NCBI GenBank assembly: GCA_012960305.1
Contig: DUBM01000014.1
Coordinates: 496,001-560,000, forward strand
Reading direction: 5' to 3'
DNA: 64,000 nt
From: Gammaproteobacteria bacterium
GTDB taxonomy: Bacteria; Pseudomonadota; Gammaproteobacteria; Pseudomonadales; Pseudohongiellaceae
In this document: piece after piece, positions 13,208-40,961 of the stretch
How the letters are laid out: every line of letters starts with the position of its first letter
Position numbering within the stretch: position 1 is the stretch's first letter
Position numbers and translations under genes: made by a program
Notes under the pieces: generated by a model
Told to the model about the DNA's origin: nothing
Database searches by the model: none
The model's input: the letters and a program-made list of their open reading frames with translations, nothing else

Positions 13208-14176
13208 ATGGCCAGACCTCTCCGCATAGAATATCCAGATGCCGTGTATCACGTATCTAACTTCGGCTTAGATTCACAACGCGCTTTTCCATCTGCCAAA
13301 TATTTCGAAGCATTTCTTGCTGTGCTAGGCGAAACCTGCGCTCGCTTGAACGTTGAAGTACATGCTTATTGCTTGCTCAGAGATCAATATCATTTGGTCG
13401 TTAAAACACCTGAAGCTAACCTCAGCAGATTCATGCGGCAGGTTGATGGCCTGTATACTCAACAATATCAACGAATCAAGCGAAGCGATGGCTCCCTCTT
13501 TCGTGGCCGCTATAAGGCAGTACTAATTCAAGCTGACAAATACCTTTTACCTCTGTCCAGATTTATACACTCCAAAGTTAAAGCTTCGGAGGTCAATAGT
13601 TATCCCTGGACTAGTTACACATTTTTCACTCGTAAAGCCAAGCCTCCTGTATGGTTTAATCGTGACGAAACTCTCAAAAAGCTAAAATCTATCGCAGCAA
13701 AGCGCCCTGCGGCTTATAAAAAATTTGCCGGCCAAAGTGTCGATAAAGAGATCTCTCATTTCTATGGAAAGAAGAATCTTTCTTCCATTATGGGAGACGA
13801 CAAATTTCGTAAAGCTGCACAAAAGAAACGCTCTGCTACTTCCACGAGAGGTGCTTCCAAGGGAGCGAATTCTAGGTGGCGCCCTTCGTGCAAACAAATT
13901 ATTACTGCTGTAGCAAAACAATTTAAGGTTTCGGAAGCCAGCATCTACAAAGCAGCTCGTGGTCCAGGTTCGAAAAATGTGCCCCGCTGGGTTGCAATGT
14001 ATTTGTGCCAAGAATTATCCGCCGTGACTCTGCAATCCATAGCGAAATTATTCAAACTAAAACGCTACGGCACAGTCTCCACAACAGTAGGTAAATTGAA
14101 GAAAGAATTTAAGGAGAACCCGAAGGCGCGTTCGGCTGCTGAGAAATTGGTGAAACAACTCAGCAAAGCAAAATAG
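13208..14176 (+). CDS. Y1/REP-associated tyrosine transposase homologue with altered catalytic residues
   Basis: The protein, 322 residues, opens MARPLRIEYPDAVYHV, the hallmark of the Y1_Tnp (IS200-like, REP-associated) family, and shows HAYCLL, LFRGRYKA and YLLPLSR. In active relatives the HUH motif reads NHYHLL; here it is DQYHLV, so the first histidine is glutamine. The catalytic tyrosine in RYIHLNP is replaced by phenylalanine (RFIHSKV). The C-terminal third (about residues 215-322) has RWVAMYLCQELS and STTVGKLKKEF, resembling DnaA domain IV. Strand-cleaving activity is therefore doubtful; a DNA-binding role is possible. A+T-rich flanks and a terminator surround it. Confidence 0.8.
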   Translation: MARPLRIEYPDAVYHVSNFGLDSQRAFPSAKYFEAFLAVLGETCARLNVEVHAYCLLRDQYHLVVKTPEANLSRFMRQVDGLYTQQYQRIKRSDGSLFRGRYKAVLIQADKYLLPLSRFIHSKVKASEVNSYPWTSYTFFTRKAKPPVWFNRDETLKKLKSIAAKRPAAYKKFAGQSVDKEISHFYGKKNLSSIMGDDKFRKAAQKKRSATSTRGASKGANSRWRPSCKQIITAVAKQFKVSEASIYKAARGPGSKNVPRWVAMYLCQELSAVTLQSIAKLFKLKRYGTVSTTVGKLKKEFKENPKARSAAEKLVKQLSKAK

Positions 14177-37026: not shown

Positions 37027-37884
37027 GTGGAATCACCTAATTTGATACGCCGGATTGCAGACAGTCAATCGGTGTTAAGAAAATCTGAAGCAAAGGTCGC
37101 CAGCTTTGTGCTCGAGAATGCCAATGACGTGATAAACATGCGTATTGTCGATTTAGCAGCCAGTACTGAGGTAAGTGAACCTACGGTAATTAGGTTTTGC
37201 CGCGCAATCGGCTATAACGGTTTTAAGGCTTTTAAACTACAGCTGGCACAGCAACTTGGGCTGGGAGGCGTTTATACACAATTTGCAGTCGACGATACTG
37301 ACACGGTAGCTGATCTGAGGAATAAGGTGTTTGACACAACGGTGGGCTCCTTGATTACCGTTCGCGATGAGTTAGATCCTTCGGTGATGGAACAGGCTAT
37401 AAATACTATTAGTAAAGCCAGGAGAGTGGAATTTTATGGCTTTGGGGCATCAGGTTCTGTCGCTGCTGATGCTCAACATAAATTTTTTCGGCTACAGCTC
37501 TCAACTTCAGCTTACACCGACCCCCATATTCAGCATATGTCTGCAATATCATTGGGCAGTGAAGATGTCGTGGTAGCAATATCTCAATCGGGACAGTCTC
37601 GTGCTTTACTCCAAAGTGTTCGACTAGCACGTGAAGCCGGCGCCACAGTAATCGGTCTAGCGCCAATGAACACCCCACTGAGTCAGCAATGTAGTATCCC
37701 AATTTACGTCAACATGAAGGAAGACCATCAAGCGTTTGCGCCGGTATCTTCCCGAATCGCTCATCTAGTAGTCATTGATGTTTTGGCTACGGGTGTAGCT
37801 CTGCATCGAAAGCCATTATTGAAAGACCATTTAAAACGCTTAAAGAAGAGTCAGAAATCGCTGCGGACGCCGGACTCTGACTGA
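37027..37884 (+). CDS. hexR: RpiR/HexR-family transcriptional regulator
   Basis: The 285-residue protein, GTG start at 37027, has an N-terminal RpiR helix-turn-helix (IVDLAASTEVSEPTVIRFCRAIGYNGFKAFK in two parts: VDLAASTEVSEPTVIRF and CRAIGYNGFKAFKLQLAQQL), and a C-terminal SIS sugar-phosphate domain (FYGFGASGSVAADAQHKF, AISQSGQSRALLQSV). HexR homologues sense 2-keto-3-deoxy-6-phosphogluconate and control central carbon genes. No glycolytic genes are nearby, so the targets are unknown. Confidence 0.88.
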   Translation: MESPNLIRRIADSQSVLRKSEAKVASFVLENANDVINMRIVDLAASTEVSEPTVIRFCRAIGYNGFKAFKLQLAQQLGLGGVYTQFAVDDTDTVADLRNKVFDTTVGSLITVRDELDPSVMEQAINTISKARRVEFYGFGASGSVAADAQHKFFRLQLSTSAYTDPHIQHMSAISLGSEDVVVAISQSGQSRALLQSVRLAREAGATVIGLAPMNTPLSQQCSIPIYVNMKEDHQAFAPVSSRIAHLVVIDVLATGVALHRKPLLKDHLKRLKKSQKSLRTPDSD

Positions 37885-37908: not shown

Positions 37909-38235
37909 TCAGTAAGCAACACCCTCTTTCTTCACCTTCTTTAGAATCCAAAAACCAAGCCAAGTACTAAATGTCCCTTTTAGAGAAACTACAATTATTA
38001 GCGGAAAGCTAAGAATCAAATCTAGGTACGCATTCCAAAACCAAGTATACAACCAGTCGATAATGGGCATGATGAATGCAAAGTAATTGGCGTAGAACTC
38101 AAGAATGCTGAGAGTGCCGATAGTGTAGTCAGTAGCGATGGTTATCCAGACACCCCACGCAAAGAAGAAAATTTGTAGCGGGGTTATCCAAATGCAGAAG
38201 TGACCAATGCCGCGCAAAAACGAATTAATAGTCAT
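37909..38235 (-). CDS. Hypothetical small membrane protein (glmS-distal module)
   Basis: I do not recognise the family. The 108-residue product has hydrophobic stretches around residues 12-32, 45-68 and 70-95, rich in Trp and Phe. GGGAAG lies ten bases before the ATG. The start lies about 24 bases downstream of a degenerate copy of the glmS 3' end (38259-38290), like the two other small genes nearer glmS. It converges with hexR. Confidence 0.5.
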   Translation of the reverse strand: MTINSFLRGIGHFCIWITPLQIFFFAWGVWITIATDYTIGTLSILEFYANYFAFIMPIIDWLYTWFWNAYLDLILSFPLIIVVSLKGTFSTWLGFWILKKVKKEGVAY

Positions 38236-38258
38236 TTTATTAGCTTCCCGAAAATTAG

Positions 38259-38290
38259 CTTACTCCACTGTTACCGACTGAGTTCAACAG
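38259..38290 (-). repeat. glmS-tail repeat, copy 4 (most diverged)
   Basis: The + strand reads CTTACTCCACTGTTACCGAC then TGAGTTCAACAG, related to the glmS 3' end and to copies 2 and 3 but with a small length change. It precedes the 108-residue membrane protein gene. An eight-G run follows at 38290-38297. Confidence 0.5.
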
Positions 38291-38430
38291 GGGGGGGTCT
38301 CACATTCACCGCAATAATTACTACCAACCAACTTCATTCACACTATCGTAAAGACACTCCCTTCACAAAGAAAGAGGCAACTTCTCTTTTGTTTGAATAC
38401 TTTGATGAATAACAACAAATACACCTTTAT

Positions 38431-38478
38431 CTACTCCGCAGTGACTGACTTGAACAAAACAGAGAATTAGATTTCTTG
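38431..38478 (-). repeat. glmS-tail repeat, copy 3
   Basis: The first 21 bases (38431-38451) match the glmS 3' end at 19 of 21 positions. On the minus strand they spell KSVTAE followed by a stop. The outer part, to 38478, matches copy 2 rather than glmS (AACAGAGAATTAG versus AACAGTGAATTAC). No clear gene follows this copy. Confidence 0.65.
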
Positions 38479-38543
38479 CCCTGAAATGCTTTATGGAAAC
38501 TTTGATAGAACTTTATATATTTTTCTACCATAAAAATTAGTAT

Positions 38544-38918
38544 CTAATTAGAAGAGATGCCTATTTTCTCCCTCGCAATTTCATTATTTACCTCAGCATC
38601 ATTTAAAGACCATGAATTATTTAAAAGTCTCGTTGAATATTGCTTGTTATAAAGAAAAGGCATTATTAATTGGAAAACACCAAAAGTTACTATAGAAAAT
38701 ATCAAATGGAAAACACCGATTGAAATCTCTCCCCTAAAAATAGGAACAAAAAAACCAAAAAAGAAATAAGTCCAAGAGTATCCAACAAAACAGTGTTTTA
38801 GTATTCCAGACTCATTGTGTTTTACTTTTATTTTCTTCTGCCATCCAAGAAATATGCTGCCAATTATTAGTGGTGAAAACACAACCAAGATTATTAGTAA
38901 AAACATTATTGCTTCCAT
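38544..38918 (-). CDS. Hypothetical small membrane protein (glmS-proximal module)
   Basis: The 124-residue product has hydrophobic stretches near residues 3-22, 46-64 and 70-95. The middle segment YSWTYFFFGFFVPIFRGEIS is reminiscent of DUF2628-like proteins; that is only a resemblance. AAAGGAAAAAATT before the ATG is a good ribosome site. It is preceded by copy 2 of the glmS-tail repeat, with a leader nearly identical to that of the sORF at 38985-39095. Confidence 0.6.
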   Translation of the reverse strand: MEAIMFLLIILVVFSPLIIGSIFLGWQKKIKVKHNESGILKHCFVGYSWTYFFFGFFVPIFRGEISIGVFHLIFSIVTFGVFQLIMPFLYNKQYSTRLLNNSWSLNDAEVNNEIAREKIGISSN

Positions 38919-38998
38919 AATTTTTTCCTTTTAATTCTCTGTTTTCTTCTACTCTACTGTGACTGAGTTGTTCACAACAGTGAATTACTCTTTCTTGT
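38916..38998 (-). repeat. glmS-tail repeat, copy 2, plus shared leader
   Basis: 38949-38969 matches the glmS 3' end at 17 of 21 bases and on the minus strand spells NSVTVE plus TAG stop. The leader from there to the ATG at 38918 (AGAATTAAAAGGAAAAAATT) closely matches the leader after the true glmS stop. The outer part, to 38998, matches copy 3. Confidence 0.65.
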
Positions 38999-39095
38999 AA
39001 TCCTGATCCAGGATTCCTTTTTCTTTCAAGGTTTTTATTAATTTTTCCGTTCTTACAAGTGCAAAACAAAAAGCCGCTGCTGATAATCCGTCCAT
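38985..39095 (-). CDS. 36-residue small ORF downstream of glmS
   Basis: The ORF begins MDGLSAAAFCFALVRTEKL and ends LDQDYKKE, with an N-terminal hydrophobic part and a charged C-terminus. It starts 31 bases after the glmS stop, with an ideal AAGGAGA ribosome site seven bases before ATG. No family is recognised. It may be the third in a run of glmS-tail-plus-small-gene modules. Its short length makes protein coding uncertain. Confidence 0.45.
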   Translation of the reverse strand: MDGLSAAAFCFALVRTEKLIKTLKEKGILDQDYKKE

Positions 39096-39146
39096 AATTT
39101 TCTCCTTCTAATTTACTGTTGTGAACTACTCCACAGTGACGGACTT
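39093..39146 (-). repeat. glmS 3' end, reference copy 1 with shared leader
   Basis: 39126-39146 is the coding end of glmS (KSVTVE and stop). The following 33 bases to the ATG at 39095 are the leader shared with copy 2. The 3' end of glmS is the sequence recognised by TnsD of Tn7-type elements, so this is the natural attachment locus; no Tn7 genes are present. Confidence 0.65.
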
Positions 39147-40961
39147 AGCGAGGTTTCTCGGGTGGTCCACATCAGTGCCTTTGATGATTGCTACATGGTA
39201 AGAGAGCAACTGTAACGGTATGGCAAAAACGATTGGGTCAAGAATGTCGGGACAACTTGGCACATTAATGACTCTGCAGCTCTTGTCGCTTTGATACTTA
39301 ATACTTTCATCAGCAAATACGTAAAGCTTGCCGCCTCTAGCACTTACTTCAGATAAATTCGCTTTTAGCTTGCCGAGCAAATCATCGTTTGGAGCAACAG
39401 CGATAACGGGCATCTTGCTATCCACAAGGGCTAAAGGCCCGTGCTTCAATTCACCAGCAGGGTAAGCTTCTGCGTGAATATATGAAATTTCCTTTAGCTT
39501 AAGTGCGCCCTCTTTGGCAATCGGGTATTGAATGCCCCTGCCGAGAAAAAGACTATGTTGTTTATCCGAAAACTGTTTTGAGATTTTCTTGATTTCTTTA
39601 CTGAGCGACAAAGCTTGTTCAACGAGATCTGGAAGCTTGGCTAGATCTTTAACCAGCTTAGCTTCTTTTTTTGGCTTTAGCCCCGTTCTACGTGCTAGCA
39701 CTATTGCGAGAATTAAAAGCAAGCTCAACTGTGCAGTGAATGCTTTAGTAGAGGCTACGCCAATTTCCTGCCCAGCCATAGTAAGAATACAAAGATCGGA
39801 TTCCCGAACTAACGAACTCGTTGCGACATTACAAATTGCTAGGGTAGCGACATAGCGTTTTTTTTTCGCATAGCGCAGTGCCGCTAGAGTATCTGCAGTT
39901 TCACCGGATTGAGATATAGTGACAAATAAAGTGCCAGGTTGCACTATTATGTCGCGGTAACGATAATCGCTAGCAATATCAACTTGACAGGGAATTGTAG
40001 CAACAGATTCAAGCCAGTATTTAGATACTTGTCCGGCATGAAAGCTAGTGCCACAGGCAACAATTTGTACCCTTTGAATTTTGTCAAAAATTGTATTTGC
40101 CTTTACTCCAAATGCTTCTTCTAAGACTTTATTCTCACTTATTCTGCCATCGAGAGTGTCTTGCAGAACTCGGGGTTGTTCATGTATTTCCTTCAACATG
40201 AAATGTTTATAGTCGCCTTTTTCTGCAGCTTTAAGATTGGATCTAACCGTAGTAATTGGCCGTTTGACAGGTTTTCCATCATGCCAAATTTCATAATTAA
40301 CAAGACCGACTCTAGCTATATCTCCTTCTTCCAAATACACAAAGCGATCAGTTACTTGGCCGATTGCCAATGGGTCAGAGGCAACGAAATTCTCATCGAT
40401 ACCCACACCAATTACTAATGGGCTGCCGCTCCGGGCGACCACTAGTTCATTGGGCTGAGTATTGTCCATGACGCAAAGCCCGTAGGCACCGTGAAGTTTC
40501 TTGACAGTTTTGTTGACTGCATCCAAGAGAGATACTTTGCCGTCTTTGCGCGCCTGATGGATCAGGTGGACAATTGTCTCAGTATCAGTTTCTGTTCTAA
40601 ATTGATAACCATCACTAATTAACTTATTTCTAAGTGATTCAAAATTTTCTATAATGCCATTATGTACGATAGCGATTTGATCGTAGGAGGTATGAGGGTG
40701 CGCGTTGGAAACTGTTGGTTTGCCGTGGGTTGCCCAGCGAGTGTGGGCAATACCAATGTTTCCTTTAGTCTTATTCTTGCCCGCCGCATCGATTAGTTTT
40801 TGGACCTTGCCAACCGCCCTAACATTATCGATTCTATTGGTATTCTGTTGCAGTAGGGCGATTCCAGCCGAATCGTATCCGCGGTATTCGAGACGCTTCA
40901 GACCTTCCAACAAGATGCCTGATACATTCCTTTCTGCTATTGCCCCTACTATCCCACACAT
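39126..40961 (-). CDS. glmS: Glutamine-fructose-6-phosphate aminotransferase (isomerizing)
   Basis: Makes glucosamine-6-phosphate for cell wall precursors. The 611-residue protein begins MCGIVGAI (catalytic Cys2), and has RWATHGKPTVSNAHPH, the glutaminase-domain core, then two SIS domains (ACGTSFHAGQVSKYW, ISQSGETADTLAALR, LGRGIQYPIAKEGALKLKE in two parts). It ends DVDHPRNLAKSVTVE. It is downstream of glmU on the same strand, with a 99-base gap. The 3' end is repeated downstream (see findings). Confidence 0.97.
   Translation of the reverse strand: MCGIVGAIAERNVSGILLEGLKRLEYRGYDSAGIALLQQNTNRIDNVRAVGKVQKLIDAAGKNKTKGNIGIAHTRWATHGKPTVSNAHPHTSYDQIAIVHNGIIENFESLRNKLISDGYQFRTETDTETIVHLIHQARKDGKVSLLDAVNKTVKKLHGAYGLCVMDNTQPNELVVARSGSPLVIGVGIDENFVASDPLAIGQVTDRFVYLEEGDIARVGLVNYEIWHDGKPVKRPITTVRSNLKAAEKGDYKHFMLKEIHEQPRVLQDTLDGRISENKVLEEAFGVKANTIFDKIQRVQIVACGTSFHAGQVSKYWLESVATIPCQVDIASDYRYRDIIVQPGTLFVTISQSGETADTLAALRYAKKKRYVATLAICNVATSSLVRESDLCILTMAGQEIGVASTKAFTAQLSLLLILAIVLARRTGLKPKKEAKLVKDLAKLPDLVEQALSLSKEIKKISKQFSDKQHSLFLGRGIQYPIAKEGALKLKEISYIHAEAYPAGELKHGPLALVDSKMPVIAVAPNDDLLGKLKANLSEVSARGGKLYVFADESIKYQSDKSCRVINVPSCPDILDPIVFAIPLQLLSYHVAIIKGTDVDHPRNLAKSVTVE

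Follow-up and report, generated by a model that had tools for sequence, protein, structure and literature searches.

Putative mobile gene cassettes arrayed at the 3′ end of glmS in marine bacteria

Integrase-borne genomic islands copy the 3′ end of their target gene and so restore the gene upon insertion, and in pdif modules, which exploit Xer recombination, small gene modules are flanked by inverted recombination sites. Tn7 is described as inserting just downstream of glmS (PMC2918618), and SE-6945 and SE-6283 of Vibrio are described as elements with imperfect 19-bp inverted end motifs and a few chosen target sites, which carry the recombinase genes IntA and IntB and whose attB is without an inverted repeat (PMC9345347). 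No description of cassette arrays at glmS was found in the open literature by titles, abstract starts and term counts, and one may be in print elsewhere. In the portions of text covered by term search, glmS was absent from PMC11582366, PMC12416821 and PMC9345347, the word cassette from PMC11582366 and PMC12416821, and the word integron from PMC12416821. The locus analysed here contains an array of small units behind glmS, and the reading that we consider quite probable is that these units are mobile gene cassettes, brought in at the 3′ end of this gene by site-specific recombination.

The array behind glmS in the window and in related genomes

In the window (the whole 64-kb stretch of DNA that was analysed), glmS (611 aa; ORF at 39126..40961, minus strand) was found to be followed on its 3′ side by an array on the minus strand composed of two intact cassettes and one composite remnant; all positions below are on that strand unless stated otherwise. 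The last 18 bases of glmS (39126-39143) are the docking core. The corresponding degenerate core, TCNGTNACNGTNGARTAR, encodes Ser-Val-Thr-Val-Glu-stop and, at a tolerance of one mismatch, was found four times on the minus strand and nowhere else in the 64 kb, compared with a mean of 0.05 matches in shuffled sequence (0/100 shuffles reached 4). This confirmed the additional copies of the glmS end behind the gene that the first-pass annotation had pointed out.

Each intact cassette was shown to start with a 17-bp left arm directly after a glmS-type stop codon and to end with an inverted right arm that leads into the next core. Cassette 1 spans 177 bp between the inferred crossover points (38960..39136) and belongs to family 0, which was present in 8 loci at 71–97% identity. 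Its left arm (TTCACAACAGTAAATTA; 39109..39125), immediately 3′ of the glmS stop codon, is complementary at 16 of 17 positions to its right arm (38971..38987). The 36-aa ORF of this cassette (38985..39095) has a purine-rich stretch 5′ of the ATG, its stop codon constitutes the first three bases of the right arm, and all Pfam matches of its product were below the curated cut-off. Core copy 1 (SVTVE stop; 38949..38966), detected as a match to the degenerate pattern, leads into the left arm of cassette 2 (AAGAAAACAGAGAATTA; 38932..38948), which was delimited by arm comparison. Cassette 2 itself, delimited by unit comparison, has 518 bp between the inferred crossover points (38442..38959) and contains an ORF from the ORF list that encodes a hydrophobic protein of 124 aa (38544..38918). 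Its right arm (38453..38469), again complementary to its left arm at 16/17 positions, is followed by core copy 2 (SVTAE stop; 38431..38448), which matched the degenerate pattern with one mismatch. In both units, 4 nt separate the right arm from the next core, and the inverted repeats around them comprise 23 nt (91% complementary for unit 1 and 87% for unit 2). The DNA of cassette 2 showed 82% identity over 387 bp to a record titled SAR86 (L229).

Unit 3 (171 bp; 38271..38441) contains arms of two classes: by arm comparison its left arm (38414-38430) is of the ATAAAGGTGT class, and its right arm (38282-38298), of the CAACAGGGGGG class, matches the left one at 5 of 17 positions. The right arm together with its core was 90% identical over 40 bp to an array in another record (L260). 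From this arrangement, unit 3 is read as the putative product of a deletion between two cassettes. Core copy 3 (SVTVE stop; 38260..38277), the last core of the array, had been described as diverged. It was shown to match the degenerate core perfectly, and it is the flanks that differ from those of copies 1 and 2.

Between the last core and the rpiR-type regulator gene (HTH_6 and SIS domains; 37027..37884, plus strand), which adjoins glmS in relatives without an array, lies an ORF that encodes a hydrophobic protein of 108 aa (37909..38235). It ends just before the end of rpiR and has no core after it, and DNA related to it was detected elsewhere in the same genome (contig C20) and in two relatives. 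All three small ORFs listed by the first-pass annotation (36, 124 and 108 codons) are present at these positions. Those of 36 and 124 codons lie within units, and the one of 108 codons, past the last core, is a candidate cassette gene only. The annotation was also correct that the array in the window contains no transposase or integrase. A promoter and terminator scan of 36.9–41.1 kb predicted fewer sites than were found in shuffles of that region. Across this genome, the right-end and left-end patterns matched 2 and 2 places, all inside the array of the window.

Across the genus, the pattern of right arm, spacer and core matched 18 places in 16 of 84 genomes, and the reversed control gave 0 matches. 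The left-end pattern matched 34 places in 27 genus genomes versus 6 matches in the control, and part of these places are therefore due to chance. A set of 75 glmS loci was compiled, 5 of them from other families of the order and 2 cut at contig ends. Among the 73 scorable loci, 16 contained a left arm (0–2 mismatches) exactly at position +1 after the stop codon; the remaining loci had at least 4 mismatches to a left arm, the next best having 4 mismatches and another offset. In 17 of these glmS loci, the start of rpiR is less than 150 bp from the glmS stop codon, which is taken as the state without an array. This refutes the possibility, considered at the outset, that the spacer is invariant single-copy DNA in relatives.

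Architecture of the sites and exchange of units

The two arms of a unit were found to covary. In 208 units delimited by consecutive cores, a set that keeps duplicate records, the left and right arms of the same unit agreed on average at 11.45 of 17 positions, compared with 7.90 (sd 0.15) for shuffled partners; none of 2000 shuffles was as high (maximum 8.42), with related sequences treated as independent. Exact duplicates were dropped from the later sets, which comprise 190 and 186 units and 172 internal cores. Since the units of a first arm profile had been chosen by the same 17 positions, the profile was repeated without selection on all 190 distinct units. Identity between the arms was 0.53–0.79 at positions 1–17, 0.36 and 0.43 at positions 18 and 19, and 0.19–0.31 thereafter. 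Units chosen by arm positions 1–8 or 5–12 gave 0.65 and 0.63 at position 17 and 0.38 and 0.35 at position 18. Positions 16 and 17 are already weaker, and the palindrome is therefore estimated to extend about 26–28 bp to either side of its axis. At least 11 of 17 arm positions were matched in 122 of the 190 units and fewer in the other 68, including unit 3 of the window; some of the units with unmatched arms may span a lost core or be composites. The arm sequences fall into many classes with one 17/4/18 geometry, and different classes stand side by side within one array. Folding of the joined ends gave a mean of −9.4 kcal/mol with the unit's own partner versus −4.8 kcal/mol with shuffled partners (186 units), which is compatible with, and does not prove, recombination through a folded single strand.

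The position of the crossover was computed from the linkage of synonymous core positions to the neighbouring arms, using about 170 distinct internal cores (171 for the wider margins) and arm classes with at least three members (113–135 cores for right arms and 40–92 for left arms). With permutations that ignore relatedness, positions N3 and N6 were linked to the upstream right arm (0/2000 permutations, whichever of three class thresholds was applied) and showed no link to the left arm downstream, whereas N12, R15 and R18 were linked to the left arm (0 or 1 of 2000 permutations) and not to the right arm. Position N9 showed a weak link to the left arm (8, 41 and 52 of 2000 permutations) and none to the right arm. 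Right-arm linkage was at background from N9 onward, and left-arm linkage was near background at N6. Because the linkage switches between N6 and N9, the exchange point is placed at the AC pair, which in the glmS gene of the window is located at 39137/39136. By these sequence comparisons, the crossover coincides with the axis of the palindrome.

Comparison of relatives showed that exact units are exchanged. In the genomes G016 and G047, the 6970 bp that end precisely at the glmS stop codon were 97.5% identical and the 12,071 bp that begin at base 5 of the last core were 96.9% identical, and different units were found between these two points; as the flanks on both sides are common to both genomes, the content of the array must have been exchanged. 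A 681-bp cassette of G019 was 96.9–97.2% identical over 677–683 bp to three records titled SAR86, although the glmS tails of G019 and one of these records (L213) showed 63.9% DNA identity. The order of units was found to change as well. Family 2 (248 bp, 98–100% identity) adjoins glmS in two genomes and stands behind three different neighbours in three other genomes, and families 2 and 4 were found in both orders. After removal of 9 loci that repeat genus records, 195 units were divided into 146 families, of which 24 are recurrent, some of the recurrences being between close relatives. The suggestion of the first-pass annotation that the array was built by repeated insertion is strongly supported by the exact-unit exchange between relatives, the changed order and the transfer between distant lineages.

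The units measure 0.15–2.5 kb. In the 195 units, the longest ORF was directed with glmS in 156 and against it in 19, and no ORF of 50 aa was present in 20. The cassette contents include restriction-modification genes, HNH nucleases, GFA, DUF805, DUF2306 and ASCH proteins, a sulfotransferase, an aldo-keto reductase and, in addition, many proteins that had no Pfam match. These were identified from 124 proteins representing 182 ORFs (40 of the 124 were also scanned singly with Pfam), and a few of the ORFs may be located outside arrays, as the region taken from loci without glmS included as much as 2.5 kb ahead of the first right end.

In the model that we propose, a free cassette would be circular, and its joined ends would make up an imperfect palindrome of 56 bp consisting of a 17-bp right arm, 4 nt, an 18-bp glmS-like core and a 17-bp left arm. 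The palindrome would be recognised as a structure, and not as a sequence, by a recombinase that acts in trans. Strands would be exchanged with the glmS end at the centre of the core, at the AC of the Thr codon, and the incoming cassette would supply the last codons of glmS and the stop codon. The displaced host end would move to the far side of the cassette, where it could act as the next docking site, and repeated rounds would build an array with genes mostly read in the direction of glmS. These genes are probably expressed by read-through from glmS.

Spread of the arrays and candidate recombinases

A scan of public genomes detected the array grammar in 89 stretches, in which the core is conserved by construction of the search pattern. 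Fifty-one of these were titled SAR86, a very abundant marine group, and other titles were SAR92, Halieaceae, Luminiphilus, Porticoccaceae and Woeseia; a few stretches were titled SAR202, Gemmatimonadetes, Verrucomicrobia and others, and titles of metagenome bins can be wrong. An upstream glmS on the same strand was found in 57 of the 89 stretches and also in all three that were extended among the other 32. In all of those 32 but L218 (4.6 kb), the first right end is no more than 2.7 kb from where the stretch starts. In the genome G144, 11 cores were found across 14 kb, the first being the glmS end and the last having one mismatch.

No recombinase family common to all hosts was found among the families searched. 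PF00589 was detected in all 26 genomes titled SAR86 (two matches in 18, one in 5 and three in 3). For eight PF00589 proteins from four SAR86 genomes, the best NCBIfam model was XerD or XerC, four each; XerD was above the cut-off in all four genomes, and XerC was above it in one and just below it in the other three. The genome of the window contains three PF00589 matches in open frames of 404–504 residues, none of XerC or XerD length. The serine recombinase family PF00239 was found in 1 of the 26 SAR86-titled genomes, and PF01548 (IS110), PF01797 (Y1) and PF06527 (TniQ) in none of them. A weak match to a Y1 transposase, the enzyme of REP/RAYT and IS200-type systems that acts on hairpins, was found in 10 of 13 genus genomes and in 0 of 30 others. 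Of 61 genus genomes, 14 contained IntI; among the 10 array genomes in this set it was present in one (G046), split over two frames. No PF00589 was present among the 25 listed of 96 Pfam families from the 124 representative cassette ORFs; the matches listed for cassette ORFs included one Resolvase, which was traced to a broken gene in L218. This leaves as the enzyme a Xer-type protein of the host, one that comes from outside, or a member of a family beyond those searched.

Several recombinase genes and isolated site-like sequences were observed in addition. In the genome of the window, a 400-aa tyrosine recombinase gene is located beside ABC transporter and protease-like genes (L178:3703-4905; G000:C20), and a weak match in a frame of 401–434 aa was obtained for 14 of the 24 genus genomes searched. 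In the window, a 324-aa open frame contains a weak match to the Y1 transposase domain (13307-13570). A small serine recombinase (L286; G000:C13:79011-79472), in an open frame of about 230–250 aa, was detected in 11 of 13 genus genomes, and no match of this kind was found in the 26 SAR86-titled genomes. A 15.5-kb contig (L285; G147:C5) contained serine recombinase matches at three places 5.06 kb apart and similarly spaced tyrosine recombinase matches, as in a concatemer of a small element. In L041:7135-7980 (G002:C70), close to the end of the contig, a left arm without mismatches stands after a GAGTAG that does not belong to a glmS end; a tyrosine recombinase gene precedes it by about 230 bp. 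In L218:3311-4640, a right arm and core come after a tRNA-like stretch and a serine resolvase gene that is broken; L218 is the only stretch with more than 4 kb upstream and no glmS. An IntI-like gene was located about 3.3–3.9 kb downstream of glmS in L048, L049, L061 and L162, and another, in two frames, beside fem in L034:5220-6252. In G018 (L033:2600-12800), the genes that separate glmS from rpiR are larger and, by ORF reading, SIR2-like, HerA-like, DNA methylase and transposase-like.

The searches made revealed no phage or plasmid as a carrier, and no viral contig matched the right-end pattern. One viral match to the left-end pattern (L294), inside a seemingly long coding stretch, was read as chance. 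The DEDD recombinase of IS110/IS1111 (PF01548) was rejected, being present in 1 of 43 array genomes. A serine integrase as general mover was likewise rejected, as large ones were found in two genomes without a nearby core and the short gene in L218 is broken.

Alternative explanations and comparison with described systems

The alternative to which we give most weight, while considering it unlikely, is that the cassettes are non-autonomous passengers moved in trans by class-specific serine or tyrosine integrases of phages or islands that target the glmS end, in which case the arms would be ordinary dimer binding sites and the many arm classes would reflect many enzymes. The attP of large serine integrases has a central crossover within a palindromic site, which the central crossover and palindrome sides of about 28 bp described above resemble, and a serine recombinase of 525–526 aa was found in 2 of the 43 array genomes. 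However, the stretches of about 3.4 kb around these two genes contain no core, and by reading their frames end in a tRNA-like read-through. Against many separate enzymes, the arm classes hold one 17/4/18 geometry and are neighbours in one array, and the right-end pattern was without a match in viral contigs. A chromosomal integron, in which the glmS end would serve IntI as a secondary site and the palindromes would be unusual attC sites, would account for the integron-like cassette contents (GFA, GNAT, SnoaL-type and small membrane proteins) and for the IntI-like genes near glmS in L034, L048, L049, L061 and L162. We regard it as very improbable: IntI was rejected as the mover because 9 of the 10 array hosts searched (among 61 genomes) are without it, the tyrosine recombinases of the four SAR86 genomes are XerC and XerD, and the crossover is at the centre of the palindrome and not in an outer GTTRRRY box. 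By eye, outer RYYYAAC / GTTRRRY attC boxes were not seen in the arms, and the intI-adjacent array in L089, which belongs to the same genome as L048, was read as having AACATAAC / GTTATGTT ends. In place of an attI beside intI, the docking site is the glmS end in the 57 of 89 stretches and the 3 of 3 extended ones.

Tandem duplication of the gene end, one of the two origins offered by the first-pass annotation, or RecA-dependent homologous recombination via the 18-bp core would explain why the cores resemble one another, and is still less credible than an integron. Spread crossovers would give graded linkage, in contrast to the switch observed within the core, and the differing synonymous bases of the core copies are linked to different arms; the units, moreover, are mostly unrelated, as reflected by the number of families. 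Serial insertion of Tn7-like transposons, or remnants of them, at attTn7 is the least probable explanation of the arrays. As the annotation noted, the 3′ end of glmS is the classical target of Tn7, and in G018 glmS and rpiR are separated by about 10 kb of other genes, so that glmS may be a hotspot for other elements too. Yet each unit begins at position +1 behind the stop codon and contains the gene end, the crossover is inside glmS, TniQ (PF06527) was found in 1 of the 43 array genomes, and no tns-like ORF was seen in the array of the window.

The hallmarks for which integrons, Tn7, IS110 and integrase-borne islands were tested were not found in the arrays. We give an even chance to the view that the arrays represent a second, integron-independent gene-capture platform of ocean bacteria. 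Such a platform would recognise the structure of a palindrome and use the glmS end as both anchor and crossover site, its recombinase (host Xer-type or outside the known families) would act in trans, and it would support exchanges between SAR86, OM182, SAR92 and OM60-type lineages and perhaps other phyla. To our knowledge, the glmS end is present in nearly every bacterium. The question of how such marine cells gain genes becomes testable in this way: the cassettes can be listed by a simple pattern, which makes gene flow between ocean lineages countable, and the arrays are a source of many small unstudied genes and point to the missing recombinase. An insertion tool could possibly be developed from the sites, provided that they function in common laboratory bacteria.

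Compared with the described systems, the cassettes share with integrase-borne islands that the element carries a copy of the gene end, but they are units of 0.15–2.5 kb that are stacked serially, and no integrase gene was seen in the scanned cassettes. Inverted flanking sites are common to pdif modules and the glmS cassettes, and in both a host recombinase could act in trans; the arms at glmS, however, are of many classes, which would set them apart from a single dif-like sequence, and the genome of the window contains no PF00589 match of Xer length. The inverted end motifs and the few target sites of SE-6945 and SE-6283 are alike, whereas the Vibrio elements carry recombinase genes and have an attB without an inverted repeat. 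Tn7 and the cassettes both target the glmS end, and the cassettes differ in exchanging the gene end. Similarity also exists to integron arrays, among them CALIN arrays, in which attC clusters occur without an integrase; integron arrays likewise consist of small units, mostly with one gene and in one direction, with changes in order, horizontal transfer and palindromic sites in which the pairing is kept while the sequence varies. Unlike integrons, the glmS arrays are without IntI in 9 of 10 array hosts in the genus, dock at the end of a housekeeping gene, have the crossover at the centre of the palindrome and contain a core that is set by the coding sequence of glmS. The arrays are best explained as a system that works like an integron array and yet is separate from it.
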